The position numbers and the translations under genes are program-made. Of a DNA stretch of 64,000 nucleotides, positions 15,178 through 21,813 are shown one piece after another. Position 1 is the first letter of the stretch. Every line of letters starts with the position of its first letter. Source of the DNA: an uncultured Saccharospirillaceae bacterium (GTDB lineage: Bacteria; Bacteroidota; Bacteroidia; Flavobacteriales_D; CAJJDF01); the NCBI GenBank assembly GCA_950054195.1, contig CATLPG010000013.1:1-64000 (forward strand). Direction: 5' to 3'. The notes beneath the pieces are model-generated. The model worked only from the letters and a program-made list of their open reading frames with translations, did no database searches and was not told the DNA's origin.

Positions 15178-15873
15178 CTATCTTAATTCTAAGAAAAAAG
15201 AAGTTCCCCAGTGACATGAGGAAAAATCTACCAAATATTTTCCAATATCTTTTTTAGAAAAAGATAAAGTTCTATCGTCTCCGGTCATATATGATATAGA
15301 TTTATACGGATTCATTAATTTCAGACTATCATCCGCACTATAGAATGCTACTGAAGTTATAGTCCCTCCAATGGGAAATTTAACTGAAATAGAATCCAAA
15401 CAATTATTACTCATATCAATCATTATGTCCTCTTTATTCTTAATTTGAAAGACTGAAACTACATAAGATTTAGGTTTGAAAACTATTTTTTCATTTTTAG
15501 CTGAATAATGGTCTGATCTAATCTTAATATAATGTTGTTCAAATTGTGTTTTGGGGTTAATTTTAATTTGAACATCTAAGGTAATGGGTTGTTTAGAGTT
15601 TAAAATAAACTCATTATCAATTGATACTTTTGAAGAGTCATGAAAAACTTGCAAATCATCAGAGCTTTTTGAAATAGCATGAATTTTTACTGGTCTTTTA
15701 GAGTCTGTATAAATTTCAATTCTCTTAGAGTATACATCTCCATTACAATTATTAGGAATTCCAAATTCAACAGAAGAAAACCAAACTGAGGTATAGTCCC
15801 AACCTTTACCTCTTAGAGAACATCTCACTGATAGAATTATGAGAAATGATATAATAGATACATATTTAAGCAT
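15178..15873 (-). CDS. Hypothetical exported protein, possible lipoprotein
   Basis: A 231-residue protein. The hydrophobic N-terminus (YVSIISFLIILSVRC) ends at Cys18 in a weak lipobox (SVRC), so lipidation is possible but uncertain. The rest looks beta-rich (ITLDVQIKINPKTQFEQHY, IVFKPKSYVVSVFQIK) without a recognisable domain. It begins 10 bp after the diheme cytochrome gene on the same strand, so it may be the distal gene of that operon. No homologue comes to mind. Confidence 0.5.
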   Translation of the reverse strand: MLKYVSIISFLIILSVRCSLRGKGWDYTSVWFSSVEFGIPNNCNGDVYSKRIEIYTDSKRPVKIHAISKSSDDLQVFHDSSKVSIDNEFILNSKQPITLDVQIKINPKTQFEQHYIKIRSDHYSAKNEKIVFKPKSYVVSVFQIKNKEDIMIDMSNNCLDSISVKFPIGGTITSVAFYSADDSLKLMNPYKSISYMTGDDRTLSFSKKDIGKYLVDFSSCHWGTSFFLELR

Positions 15874-15883
15874 CTATTTTTAT

Positions 15884-17020
15884 TTACTTCTCCATCTCCT
15901 TAATCCACTTTTTAACTAGAGCAACTCCTTCTTCGTGGATGAGTGTTTTACCAACTTCTGGCATGGCAATGTTTGGTTCGCTGTTCTCCATACGATAAAC
16001 CATAATCGACTCTTCTGGTTTGCCTGGCACAACATCAAATTTCAAATTCCCAGATCCTTGTCCGGCTGCTACTGGATGTTTATTAACACCTATTGCCTGT
16101 AGGTTTTCTTCATGATAATTTAAGTTTAATCCACTTGTTTTAGCAGAACCCTGGCTTCTATGACAATGTGCACAATTGGCTTGTAAATATGCACGTGCTA
16201 ATTGATTCGTATTTCCGCTAGATGCTACTTTATAACTAGGGATCTTGTCTATCTCTGAAACTTCTCTTGTTTCGTTTAAAAAACCTTTTGCTTTCATATA
16301 AGCAATGTGATTTTCATTTCCTAGTGCAGCATTCGTTCCATTCAACTGCATTGGTGAAGGACCAATAGGCACTACCTTACCATTATTAATATGGCAGTTT
16401 TTGCACATGTTTACATTTGGTGTTGAATAGGTAAATGAAACAGGCTGAGCTTCTGGTGTCTTTTTAAACGTAACATCAATGTCTTTCCCAAGAATATATA
16501 AGTAAGCCTCTGTTTGTTCTTCGTTCCAGATATACGGAATTGTTTCCCATTTGTTAGTCTTCTCACTATGTACCAACAAACGAGTTTCTAAGAGTTTATC
16601 CTCATCTGAATCTGCTAATTGGTCGCCCTTGTAATAAAAGTTCTTAATAATAACCGTTCCAACTGGAAAATCTAGTATTTCATCATCTTCAACAACATTC
16701 ATTGAAGTTCCCTCTGGCAAGTAAATAAAACGCTTTTTAGAGGTGTAATCAGAAAATAAAGGTGAGTTTAACTCGTAAGGAATCACTTGTTCACTTATTG
16801 GAATTAACTGATTTAATGGCTGCTTAAAAAAGCCGTATTCAGATAATTTCAACAAGCCCATATCGTAAGTATCTGTAGGGTACGGAGCTGCTAATAAGCC
16901 ATTAATACTTTTACCACTAACTTGCTTCTCTTCTACTGTCTCTTCCTTGTTACTATCATTACAAGAAATGATGAGAACTAAAACTAAAAAAAGACTACTT
17001 ACACTTAAATTTCGATACAT
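15884..17020 (-). CDS. SO2930-family diheme c-type cytochrome lipoprotein
   Basis: A 378-residue lipoprotein (signal LVLVLIISC, Cys20). The two haem-binding sites are CKNCH near residue 204 and CAHCH near residue 285. The region between signal and haems (LSEYGFFKQPLNQLIPISEQ, PYELNSPLFSDYTSKKRFIY) is specific to the SO2930/TIGR03806 family. The C-terminal MENSEPNIAMPEVG supplies possible methionine ligands. Members occur regularly next to a TIGR03805 parallel beta-helix gene, as here, where the two overlap by 26 bp. The function of the pair is unknown; an extracytoplasmic redox role is an inference from the haems. Confidence 0.9.
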   Translation of the reverse strand: MYRNLSVSSLFLVLVLIISCNDSNKEETVEEKQVSGKSINGLLAAPYPTDTYDMGLLKLSEYGFFKQPLNQLIPISEQVIPYELNSPLFSDYTSKKRFIYLPEGTSMNVVEDDEILDFPVGTVIIKNFYYKGDQLADSDEDKLLETRLLVHSEKTNKWETIPYIWNEEQTEAYLYILGKDIDVTFKKTPEAQPVSFTYSTPNVNMCKNCHINNGKVVPIGPSPMQLNGTNAALGNENHIAYMKAKGFLNETREVSEIDKIPSYKVASSGNTNQLARAYLQANCAHCHRSQGSAKTSGLNLNYHEENLQAIGVNKHPVAAGQGSGNLKFDVVPGKPEESIMVYRMENSEPNIAMPEVGKTLIHEEGVALVKKWIKEMEK

Positions 17021-18290
17021 CTGACGTTATATTTTCAAAATCATTTATCACATCCAGCATTAAAAATGACATATCTTCTGATACATCTTCTTTAAAACAA
17101 ATAATGCTTGTATTTCCCACACCTTCTTCTTTGATTCCATCCCAAACCACATGACGATAAGTAAATGCACTTTTAAATAGCATGATTTCTCCAAACACAT
17201 TGTTTAACGTTGGGAACCAATAAGAATTTTCATAGTTGTTTGATCCAATAGTCACATTTCTTGGATCTGGATCGTAGTTTTTATCGTTTTTATAATTTTC
17301 ATTATGTCTACGGACACCAATAGCCTCACCATCTTCATTGTAAGAAGGATCGTTTTCTGCTTCATTTTTCCCTAGCTCATAGATCAATTTATAACTCAAT
17401 ACCGCAATACCTAATGTTTTATTATCAGTAAACGTATTATCATGAAAATTCACTTGATTAGTTGCTAAAACAATAGAACCTGTACCCGTTGGTACTTGTC
17501 CAACGATTGAACCTTTAGGAGCAAAACTCTTAATGTTATTATTATACACATTATTATTGTAAACCTCAATGTTTTTACCATATTGAGTAAGCATTGGTAA
17601 GTCGAAAATTAAAATTCCACTTACATTTTCGTATACCTCATTATTGAAAATCTTCACGTTTTTAGAGTTCTCACTTTCAATACCTGCTACATTATAAAAT
17701 ACTTCATTGTTACTAATAACCACACTATCCGATTGACCAACATAAATACCAGCATCCGAAGAACCTATAGATCGACAATGATCTATTACTATATTTTTAC
17801 TTAATACAGGGTAAAAAGCATAAGCTCCATTTTTACTACTTACTTTTCCTGTCCAACTACTTTGTACGTACTGCATAATAATACCATCAGTATCCATAAA
17901 TTTTATGTTATCTCCTTTGGCGTCTTCAACGGTTAAGTTTTCAATCGTTATATTTTTGCAGTTACTCACTCGTATCCCCTCTGCTCCTTTCTTTTGATCC
18001 TTAAAACTTAAAATGGTTTTGTCGATTCCTTTTCCTCGGATAATAATATTGCTTACGCCATCCAATGATAGGCTTTGCGATAGTTTGAAATGTCCCTCCT
18101 CTAATTCAATAACGCTGCTGTCTTTAGCTGTTAAAAATTTAGCTAGAATTTCATTTTCTTTGTTTTCGATGTAGTTTCTCTCAGGTGTGTAAGAGGGTGT
18201 TGGCTCTATCTTAATGATAAAATAGGATATAACAACAGTTGCAACTAACAGTAGTAGAACTACACCAATTCTCTTTAATGCTTTTTTCAT
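16995..18290 (-). CDS. Parallel beta-helix protein of the TIGR03805 type
   Basis: A 431-residue exported protein. I chose ATG 18290 because it starts a membrane-anchor or signal segment (MKKALKRIGVVLLLLVATVV); the longer frame from 18404 adds 38 residues unlike any signal. The mature protein has right-handed beta-helix repeats: IIIRGKGIDKTILSF, NITIENLTVEDAKGDNI, NIVIDHCRSIGSSDAGIYVG and VVISNNEVFYNVAGI. These are followed by NVKIFNNEVYENVSGILIF and IEVYNNNVYNNNI. Such folds bind or cleave polysaccharides, but no catalytic residues of a lyase are evident. The 3' end overlaps the cytochrome gene by 26 bp, so the two are almost certainly translated from one message. Confidence 0.88.
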   Translation of the reverse strand: MKKALKRIGVVLLLLVATVVISYFIIKIEPTPSYTPERNYIENKENEILAKFLTAKDSSVIELEEGHFKLSQSLSLDGVSNIIIRGKGIDKTILSFKDQKKGAEGIRVSNCKNITIENLTVEDAKGDNIKFMDTDGIIMQYVQSSWTGKVSSKNGAYAFYPVLSKNIVIDHCRSIGSSDAGIYVGQSDSVVISNNEVFYNVAGIESENSKNVKIFNNEVYENVSGILIFDLPMLTQYGKNIEVYNNNVYNNNIKSFAPKGSIVGQVPTGTGSIVLATNQVNFHDNTFTDNKTLGIAVLSYKLIYELGKNEAENDPSYNEDGEAIGVRRHNENYKNDKNYDPDPRNVTIGSNNYENSYWFPTLNNVFGEIMLFKSAFTYRHVVWDGIKEEGVGNTSIICFKEDVSEDMSFLMLDVINDFENITSDVSKFKCK

Positions 18291-19661: not shown

Positions 19662-21134
19662 CTAGAGGTTTGAAAAATAATTATCTAGAAAGATTAACCG
19701 ATTGGAAATCCAGCTATTAATATATTGCTTTTCTGCTTGAATATTAAAGTTGGAGTTCCATTTGGTGTTTTCTAATTCCTCTGCATTATAATTAGCTAAT
19801 TGATTGAGGTTTGACTCAAACAATGCCTTTATTGTTGCTTCGCTAAATTGGTTGCTTCTTAACAGTTCCCAACGGTTCTTTACTTTATTCCTAAAATCAT
19901 TAGTATTTAACTCTAACAAGCGACTAAACAAATTATTTTCATTTGTTTTATTATAACTACGAGTATAACCTTGACTAGTTCTCCCCCAAGTCGCATCTAA
20001 ATCCCACAGTAATATTTTAAACTTTTGTGTTTGATCTTTCTTCAAGAAAAACCAATTTTTACCCAAATTATCATATCCATCACATAAGCTCATAAACAAA
20101 TAGTAATCAATAGTATTATTGATATCCAATTGATCAAAGATTTTTTGATTAAACTCAGCATTACTTGCTGTTGTTATTAGCCTTGATAATTCATAAAAAT
20201 CATCCCATGAATCTTTTTCAGATGGATCAGGATAAACTTGCTCCCAATCTGCCCAAAACTTACCACTTGGCATATTCGCTGGTAGTTCAAGGAACTTTGT
20301 GAAAGTACTATTATCAATTCCTTCGTGCATTGAGGAATTGTTAGACAAATTAAGATTTTCATCAGTATATATTTCTGACAACCGATAGAGTCCTAACGAT
20401 TTGTTATTAACAAAAAGTTCAAGAAACTCTGACTCAATAGAAACACTTGACAAGCTACTCCACAACTCGAAACATACTTTATTTCTAACTTTTGATTTAT
20501 CAGTAAAAAGAGCATCTAGAGCCCATTTATGGTTTGTTTCAAAATTAAAAAAACTAGAAGATGACACGTCTTTTAATGCTTTCGTTTGTAAAGGGGCAAA
20601 GCCATAAGATTTTTTATCGTTAAACACCGATGATTTACCTCGTATTTCAATTCCGATATACTTGTTGTAACTAGGAATGGGGTAATTAGCATAATTAACC
20701 GTTAATTTAGCTAATGATTTAGGATCATTTTTTATGTCATCATAGGTAACGACTCTAGCCAAAGTTAGGTTAGTAAAAATAAACTTCAAGTTAAGCGTTT
20801 TATCTAATAGTTTAACTTGTAGATCATAAGGTTTGTGATATTCAAGATCTCCAAATGAATTAACGTGATTATTTTGAAGACTAATTTGCTTATTAAACAA
20901 TACTTCTGCTTCGTTTTGGAATTTAACTAATGCTTGAAAATTCTGAAGCTCATTGTTGGATATGGGATACTTTAGTAGATTTAAATCGTCATCGTAGAAA
21001 CAATCTTTTCCATTTAAATTTAAAATTAAAGGAAGACTAAAACCAGGGGTTGGTTCACCATCTAGTATTACTGTTTTTTTCGTACAGCTTACTACTAAAA
21101 AGAGTGATAAAAATATGTATACAATCTTGCTCAT
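19662..21134 (-). CDS. CotH-like kinase family lipoprotein
   Basis: A 490-residue protein with a lipoprotein signal (IFLSLFLVVSC, Cys17). CotH-fold kinase hallmarks are YIGIEIRGKSSVFNDKKSYGF (residues 159-179, broken here for length as RGKSS then KKSYGF), LDALFTDKSKVRNKVCFELW at 206-224 and the metal-binding KILLWDLDATWGR at 373-385. CotH proteins are atypical kinases that phosphorylate spore-coat or secreted proteins. In non-spore-forming bacteria the substrate is unknown. The preceding DUF2490 gene ends 1 bp before this start, so the two form an operon of a lipoprotein and a predicted outer-membrane barrel. Confidence 0.85.
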   Translation of the reverse strand: MSKIVYIFLSLFLVVSCTKKTVILDGEPTPGFSLPLILNLNGKDCFYDDDLNLLKYPISNNELQNFQALVKFQNEAEVLFNKQISLQNNHVNSFGDLEYHKPYDLQVKLLDKTLNLKFIFTNLTLARVVTYDDIKNDPKSLAKLTVNYANYPIPSYNKYIGIEIRGKSSVFNDKKSYGFAPLQTKALKDVSSSSFFNFETNHKWALDALFTDKSKVRNKVCFELWSSLSSVSIESEFLELFVNNKSLGLYRLSEIYTDENLNLSNNSSMHEGIDNSTFTKFLELPANMPSGKFWADWEQVYPDPSEKDSWDDFYELSRLITTASNAEFNQKIFDQLDINNTIDYYLFMSLCDGYDNLGKNWFFLKKDQTQKFKILLWDLDATWGRTSQGYTRSYNKTNENNLFSRLLELNTNDFRNKVKNRWELLRSNQFSEATIKALFESNLNQLANYNAEELENTKWNSNFNIQAEKQYINSWISNRLIFLDNYFSNL

Positions 21135-21135
21135 C

Positions 21136-21813
21136 CTATAATTTGAATGTGTAATACACTCTAGTAAACATGAAATGTAATGGGTAAAGTGAGTTTAGTT
21201 CTCTTTCATAGCCAAAAGACAAATCAAATTGACCATACTTTGTTTCAATTTCGTCTCCTACTACAAACCTTAATTCACTGAAATAAGGTTTTCTGTAATA
21301 TAAAATAGTTCTAAATATTTCTGTTGTGAAATATAGTTCATGATGATTCTTAAGTTTGTAAAACAATCCAACTCTATTTCTAATAGCTGATTTAGACTCA
21401 CCTTTATTGGGTTGGGCAGTAAACAAGTTTTCATATGCCGTTTGATGCCTTAATCGATATCTAAATTTAAGGTGTTTGATCAGCTTCGTTCTATATTTGA
21501 AATCAAGGTTGTATCGCCAATTCTGTGATTGTGTTTCATCTCTTTTTTGATTGATATAATACCTTAATTCTCCTCCGATTCTAAACTCCTTATTGATTTT
21601 ATAGGATAGTCCTATTTCCGAAATATATTTATCAAGTTCTGATAAACTTTCTTGAAATCGAATATCCTGACTTAAACTAAGATCAAGGTCTTTCGTGAGG
21701 TCATATTTTAATGTAGCCCCCATCCATGCTCCAACATCTTGCGTTGTTTTAATTTGCTGAGCATGCAAACACAGTATAGGTATCATTAGAATAAGTTGTA
21801 CTACTATCTTCAT
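21136..21813 (-). CDS. DUF2490 outer-membrane beta-barrel protein
   Basis: A 225-residue protein with a signal peptide (MKIVVQLILMIPILCLHAQ). The rest alternates amphipathic strands and ends in an aromatic strand (HFMFTRVYYTFKL), typical of outer-membrane barrels. The patterns TQDVGAWMGATLKYDLTKDL, LSQDIRFQESLSELDKYISE and ELRYYINQKRDE match DUF2490 proteins. No function is assigned to the family; in this window it is cotranscribed with a CotH-like kinase gene 1 bp downstream. It is about 130 bp from the displaced spoIID fragment. Confidence 0.82.
   Translation of the reverse strand: MKIVVQLILMIPILCLHAQQIKTTQDVGAWMGATLKYDLTKDLDLSLSQDIRFQESLSELDKYISEIGLSYKINKEFRIGGELRYYINQKRDETQSQNWRYNLDFKYRTKLIKHLKFRYRLRHQTAYENLFTAQPNKGESKSAIRNRVGLFYKLKNHHELYFTTEIFRTILYYRKPYFSELRFVVGDEIETKYGQFDLSFGYERELNSLYPLHFMFTRVYYTFKL

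Follow-up and report, generated by a model that had tools for sequence, protein, structure and literature searches.

Two overlapping genes on the minus strand of the analyzed stretch of DNA (64,000 nucleotides, called the window below) encode a parallel beta-helix protein (BH, upstream) and a diheme c-type cytochrome (CYT, downstream), and several comparisons indicate that the first heme domain of CYT is probably homologous to the cytochromes P460. This proposed relationship is new and had been overlooked by the first-pass annotation of the DNA. With a P460-like first heme domain, CYT probably does more than carry electrons, and catalysis by CYT is proposed with moderate confidence. The preferred reading, to which a nearly even chance is given, is an open-heme oxidative complex that would work on, or through, its beta-helix partner in a MauG/MbnH-like manner.

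The window pair was confirmed as a real TIGR03805/TIGR03806 pair. BH reached 302.4 bits against TIGR03805 (curated cut-off 141.5) and CYT 347.2 bits against TIGR03806 (curated cut-off 313.3), and thus both proteins were above the cut-offs. Gene order and strand are also those of the two families, i.e., the pair is a plain family member. The first-pass annotation had named both families, the 26-bp overlap and two CxxCH sites in the cytochrome, and all of this was borne out by the open reading frames, the family scores and the positions of the two sites (Table 1). It had also described a lipoprotein and an anchored beta-helix. A lipobox-like LIISC (CYT residues 16-20) and an N-terminal hydrophobic helix (BH residues 2-26) are indeed present; as readings of the sequence and of a predicted model, respectively, they make CYT a putative lipoprotein and the helix a putative anchor. 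The predicted models had a pLDDT of 88.5 (BH) and a pLDDT of 82.3 with a pTM of 0.79 (CYT). The NCBIfam names, 'SO2930 family diheme c-type cytochrome' and 'parallel beta-helix domain-containing protein', assign no function.

Table 1. Features of the BH/CYT pair; positions are those of the window.
Feature	Positions	Strand	Remarks
BH, TIGR03805 parallel beta-helix protein	16995..18290	-	431 aa, ATG at 18290; predicted N-terminal membrane helix/uncleaved signal
CYT, TIGR03806 'SO2930 family' diheme c-type cytochrome	15884..17020	-	378 aa; probable lipoprotein
BH/CYT overlap, 26 bp	16995..17020	-	ORF coordinates
P460/cytochrome c'-beta-like domain of CYT, heme 1	16334..16858	-	Residues ~55-229; VIA-align rows 1-17 and profile comparison
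CYT heme 1 site CKNCH	16391..16405	-	Residues 206-210; sequence and alignment
CYT Lys126	16643..16645	-	Alignment partner: the P460 lysine that is crosslinked to the heme, McP460 Lys78
CYT Arg97	16730..16732	-	Aligned with the McP460 distal capping Arg50
CYT Glu145-Thr146-Arg147	16580..16588	-	On or next to the P460 distal-carboxylate position
CYT heme 2 site CAHCH	16160..16174	-	Residues 283-287; class I cytochrome c domain, PF00034
CYT Met353	15962..15964	-	Probable sixth ligand of heme 2
BH Trp146	17853..17855	-	98/98 CYT-type beta-helices
BH conserved core Y157, Y160, D179, Y183	17742..17822	-	Each 98/98

To follow the pair through other genomes, the two families were located in 395 Bacteroidota genomes. 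TIGR03806 was above the cut-off in 22 and TIGR03805 in 25 of them, and matching of the two genome lists by eye revealed that all 22 were among the 25. BH and CYT were adjacent in 18 of the 22 TIGR03806-positive genomes, while in G311, G332, G427 and G486 they were 10 kb apart or on separate contigs. The three BHs beyond the 22 genomes, one of them from G430, were divergent (145-189 bits). A scan of species genomes with a BH alignment yielded at least 581 relatives, and the best 80 of these were used. The named records among the 80 belong to Bacteroidota, Marinimicrobia, Gammaproteobacteria, Acidobacteria (Bryobacterales) and Planctomycetes. The accessible parts of the literature searched, with subscription papers mostly outside, contain neither a role for the TIGR03805/TIGR03806 pair nor a link to P460. 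A same-strand, adjacent CYT was present at 67 of the best 80 loci, two loci were at a contig edge, and 11 were without adjacent CYT. At two of these 11 the CYT was found one gene or about 1.3 kb farther away. The genomes of the other nine were searched as a whole, and TIGR03806 was above the cut-off elsewhere in eight of them, the ninth (G929) being without it. Thus, BH and CYT go together even when they are unlinked.

The arrangement of the genes was more regular than expected by chance. All 72 cleanly called pairs were on the same strand with BH first, 37 overlapped, and in 63 the gap was at most 20 bp. The 72 pairs were taken from 112 clustered sources, of which 23 were excluded beforehand (near-duplicate, split or differently linked) and 17 were dropped because gene calling did not give their BH and CYT as two single, neighbouring ORFs. 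The BH and CYT distance matrices of 80 pairs correlated with r = 0.74, compared to a maximum of 0.18 in 2000 shuffles, a correlation that shared ancestry alone also gives. The distribution of CYT is patchy, since it was above the cut-off in just 3/299 genomes of the order of the window and in none of the other genomes of its genus, of which there is one. Fusions were found in Gammaproteobacteria, where TIGR03805 was above the cut-off in 9/229 genomes: three of these nine (G734, G721 and G808) encode BH and CYT as a single polypeptide of about 1020-1045 aa. The co-occurrence and these fusions support the earlier proposal as far as it describes a redox system in which both proteins are exported and closely linked.

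The same BH family is fused or adjacent to MauG/MbnH-like diheme proteins, a family that is unrelated to CYT, in three genomes. In G550 BH is fused to such a protein (L266:8686-10980), and the MauG/MbnH-like part had 224.7 bits against TIGR03791 and 219.6 bits against TIGR04039, each below the respective cut-off. In G430 a CCP_MauG gene is located 18 bp upstream of a BH with its own C-terminal c-type heme. The third case is G816, in which a CCP_MauG gene lies upstream and overlaps the BH-heme gene, provided that the listed GTG start is correct. MauG and MbnH oxidize partner proteins. Because the MauG/MbnH-like proteins stand where CYT stands elsewhere, a partner-directed oxidation is suggested.

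The likeness of the first CYT domain to P460 is below Pfam detection. PF16694 did not match the window CYT at E 0.1 (hmmscan), CCP_MauG (PF03150) was also absent among the families at E 0.1, and a PDB sequence search with CYT gave nothing useful. The CYT model had no Foldseek match to PDB chains at E 0.001 or better. After re-alignment of the model with VIA-align, the top 17 rows were all cytochromes P460/c'-beta (residues ~51-247) at Z 7.8-5.0, i.e., below the safe level of Z 8, under which a chance arrangement is possible. From the next row onward, unrelated folds were listed, starting at Z 4.6. The list contained no CCP/MauG chain, an absence that carries no weight. For a profile comparison, PF16694 was found in 45/185 genomes, and 30 loci led to 26 P460 sequences after four partial or odd ones had been dropped. 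In the alignment with the P460 profile, Prob was 91 and P 1.1e-6 for the 11 sequences of the unpaired CYT subfamily, compared to Prob 24 and P 8e-4 for the 85 sequences of the paired one, and where the two alignments cover a common segment their register is identical. As controls, 60 column shuffles, a reversed profile, BH, the C-terminal domain of CYT and eight families of neighbouring genes were compared, and all of them scored lower; the paired subfamily was ahead by a small margin, with a score of 29.4 versus 26.2 for BH, the best unrelated control. CYT domain 1 would share its beta-sheet fold with the cytochromes P460/c'-beta (McP460 6hiu, NeP460, TtCP-beta 7ead), and it likewise has a CxxCH near the C-terminal end. 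These cytochromes have a single heme, whereas CYT has a further cytochrome c domain of the His/Met type and also a lipobox-like motif.

The conservation of single residues was analyzed with 113 CYT sequences (93 paired, 11 unpaired, and 9 fused or other). Glu145 and Arg147 were present in all 113, Arg97 and Thr146 in 112, and Lys126 in 111. Both exceptions for Lys126 are proteins of one planctomycete locus. This locus, L208 (Planctomycetaceae), encodes two tandem CYT proteins, with Ile and Gln in place of the lysine. In the profile register, Lys126 (FPVGTVIIK) takes the place of the lysine in WPDGxILxK, a P460 motif, and Arg97 that of the Arg in LRxILGN. According to the available sections of a review, Methylococcus P460 has Lys78 as heme crosslink, Arg50 as capping residue and Asp102 as proton-accepting carboxylate (PMC11928373), and an excerpt of a further paper also gives Lys78 as the crosslink (PMC12352625). 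The residue numbers Lys78 and Arg50 were obtained by counting in 6hiu_B, and Asp102 likewise comes out at the place given for it in Table 2 of PMC11928373. Thus, like McP460, CYT has a Lys at the crosslink position and an Arg at the capping position. A covalent crosslink between Lys126 and the heme, suggested by this alignment, is tentatively considered, with the balance tilted somewhat against it. In the alignment, the P460 distal-carboxylate position falls on Arg147 of CYT, not on an acid, and the invariant Glu145 is two residues earlier; therefore, a P460-like hydroxylamine oxidation is not to be assumed. Outside the heme motif, no conserved His or Met was found in CYT domain 1 (the best was His151, 56/113), and Met353 beside heme 2 is a Met in 110/113. 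Heme 1 is therefore predicted to be open or lysine-bound, and heme 2 to be a His/Met carrier. MauG and bacterial cytochrome c peroxidases divide the work between their hemes in a similar way.

The beta-helix partner also has a strictly conserved set of residues. In addition to those in Table 1, Gln186, Glu205, Glu207 and Asn208 were present in 98/98 CYT-type BHs. The three MauG-linked BHs all have Tyr157, Asp179, Tyr183, Glu205, Glu207 and Asn208, and just one of the three has Trp146, which speaks against the preferred reading. A BH motif, YG-YPV, may resemble the active-site motif of alginate epimerases and was set aside. BH alone had no match in a PDB sequence search, and the search with a BH profile gave weak matches to phage appendages and glucanases.

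In the preferred reading, BH and CYT would form one exported, membrane-anchored heme complex, with BH as the dedicated partner of CYT. The P460/c'-beta-like domain would carry the reactive heme with its distal side open or lysine-bound, and the class I cytochrome c domain with the His/Met heme would pass electrons to or from periplasmic carriers. The reactive heme may take a small oxidant or substrate, such as peroxide, O2, NO or a hydroxylamine-like compound, and use it to oxidize a target presented by BH. This target could be a ligand held by BH, perhaps a sugar, or the invariant Trp/Tyr of BH itself. Known systems, i.e., MauG/MbnH with MADH/MbnP, CorB/CorA and SACCP/MopE, are similar in being encoded by two genes, one for a c-type protein with two hemes, of which one is reactive, and one for its exported partner. 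The accessible part of one paper describes for CorA/CorB and MopE/SACCP the conversion of a partner tryptophan to kynurenine and the co-transcription of the diheme protein (PMC3912023), and the MbnP/MbnH pair is a further precedent, likewise from a partial source (PMC3621798). CYT and CCP_MauG are different by sequence, and a modification of BH by CYT is hypothetical. A more specific version, in which the TIGR03806 proteins would be diheme P460-type enzymes that oxidatively modify the BH aromatics Trp146/Tyr157/Tyr160/Tyr183 to a protein-derived cofactor, as a non-homologous counterpart of MauG/MbnH and an orphan enzyme present in many phyla, is unlikely.

Because the first-pass annotation had proposed a polysaccharide as the target, the genomic context was also inspected. 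The comparison used random samples from the paired loci, 110 of the 127 near genes and 110 of the 163 more distant ones. 3-Keto-disaccharide hydrolases made up 6/110 of the adjacent genes and were outside the 25 most frequent families among the 110 distant genes; CarboxypepD-type domains, which are typical of TonB receptors, were encoded by five adjacent genes and were not listed among the distant genes. These were the sole families that stood out near the pairs, and the other adjacent genes were mostly unrelated to each other. In one group of Chitinophagaceae/Cytophagaceae-type loci the pair lies among GH88, GH95, GFO/IDH/MocA and 3-keto-disaccharide hydrolase genes, and the 3-keto-disaccharide hydrolase neighbours are confined to this one type of sugar-utilisation cluster, the contexts elsewhere being variable. 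A cluster of PQQ-dehydrogenase-type proteins was represented at five loci, four gammaproteobacterial ones (two near-identical) and one on a Novosphingobium plasmid, and was seen again in L253. On the plasmid the pair is located between TonB receptors, with aldehyde dehydrogenases near, and a TonB-receptor-like protein of ~795 aa was found in 17 of the 112 clustered sources. A side observation concerns a protein of 571 aa (L098:10833-12548) that begins with a twin-arginine-like sequence and matches no family in Pfam or NCBIfam; it belongs to a cluster of 8, and several of the sugar-utilisation loci encode it upstream of BH. The polysaccharide target itself is weakly indicated: the epimerase/lyase-like BH and the six sugar-gene neighbours speak for it; against it, polysaccharide genes lie beside a minority of the pairs, and the window pair is not one of these.

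These results bear on a glycan oxidation, in which BH would be a carbohydrate-binding, epimerase-like scaffold and CYT would draw electrons from a sugar or a sugar dehydrogenase into the respiratory chain. This is rather improbable, but it accounts for the sugar-utilisation and PQQ-dehydrogenase-type neighbours and for the whole-length matches of the BH model, which were best for the epimerases AlgE6/AlgE4 (Z 32) and the lyase RbmB (Z 29.7) and also included polygalacturonases and NosD (Z 27.4). The alginate C5-epimerases AlgE/AlgG, RbmB and NosD have the right-handed beta-helix in common with BH at Z 25-32 and a sequence identity of 11-17%, and the beta-helix fold is common to many functions, that of NosD included. 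The catalytic set of alginate epimerases/lyases is Tyr/Asp/His, according to the available part of PMC8824271. A further point in favor comes from G522 and G550, where a CYT domain is fused to a sugar dehydrogenase of the GSDH type that carries a type IX secretion tail (L264:8667-13652 and L265:2772-5402; in G550 the contig ends before the frame is closed). In these fusions the CYT domain may be an electron acceptor alone, which counts against the preferred reading. However, polysaccharide genes are absent beside most pairs.

The same two dehydrogenase fusions, and an NCBIfam name that says c-type cytochrome and no more, would also fit a plain electron-transfer unit, in which both hemes relay electrons, Lys126 is the sixth ligand of heme 1 or structural, and BH is a docking scaffold. 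This is unlikely, since the near-invariant K95, R97, K126, E145 and R147, which lie on or close to distal positions of P460, exceed the needs of a relay and MauG-like proteins occur beside the same BH family. A role in copper handling, with BH as a NosD/MbnP-like metal protein that is matured or kept in its redox state by CYT, is very unlikely. BH does match the Pfam NosD model (48.2 bits) in addition to the NosD chains, a cupredoxin-BH fusion exists in G816 (L257:9015-10694; its BH part, at 81.8 bits, is divergent and below the cut-off), and MbnP/MbnH and CorA/CorB are copper-linked or suspected to be so in the accessible parts of the literature. But against the NosD family TIGR04247 BH had 21.5 bits, far under the cut-off of 300, and BH has no invariant His and, apart from the start, no invariant Met, so that a CorA-like copper site is unlikely. 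Neither a polysaccharide gene nor a copper gene was found beside the window pair among the Pfam/NCBIfam families of its neighbours.

The TIGR03806 family is named after SO2930 of Shewanella oneidensis. In the available part of one paper, SO_2930 and SO_2931 are both listed among the c-type cytochromes of the outer membrane or the extracellular space (PMC4837345). The cathodic current was lost when SO2931 was deleted together with the other outer-membrane cytochromes, a result that does not set SO2931 apart from them (PMC5829830). As far as the sources were available, the literature searched contains just lists, expression tables and multi-gene deletions and no role for SO2930/SO2931. If the P460 reading is true, a widespread orphan pair would become a testable oxidative enzyme instead of a simple electron carrier, and it would be tied to MauG/MbnH-type partner chemistry. 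The retained crosslink lysine allows a direct spectroscopic test, i.e., a 460-nm ferrous band, a covalent Lys-heme mass and reactivity with NO or peroxide. The P460/c'-beta members are described from proteobacteria in the phylogeny section of the review, the part available here (PMC11928373), and the superfamily would be extended to Bacteroidota, other phyla and two-heme proteins.

The gene that follows the pair in the window (15178-15873) begins 10 bp past the CYT stop. The first-pass annotation had noted a secreted protein here, had given the spacing correctly, and had suggested a co-occurrence check. The gene had no tblastn homologue in 294 loci and was ruled out as a member of the system; it has no Pfam or NCBIfam family, and a sub-threshold IglC match was disregarded. 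The neighbours of the pair encode one protein each of the VWA, CotH-domain, DUF2490 and DUF218 types and two family-less proteins. The genes for the CotH-domain and the DUF2490 protein (19662-21813) are separated by 1 bp and lie upstream of the pair, past the opposite-strand VWA gene. The cytochrome patterns had no match in the viral_contigs set. Sub-cut-off TIGR03806 matches, which account for 55 of the 58 matching genomes of the order, were set apart from the system because their neighbours differ: BH was near none of 27 such loci among L002-L030 (flanks of at most 1.5 kb). At loci with wider flanks, the next gene was from one cluster in 9/10 cases (L120-L128). The two annotated members of this cluster are FG-GAP/UnbV_ASPIC proteins with T9SS tails, pointing to a second, unpaired system.
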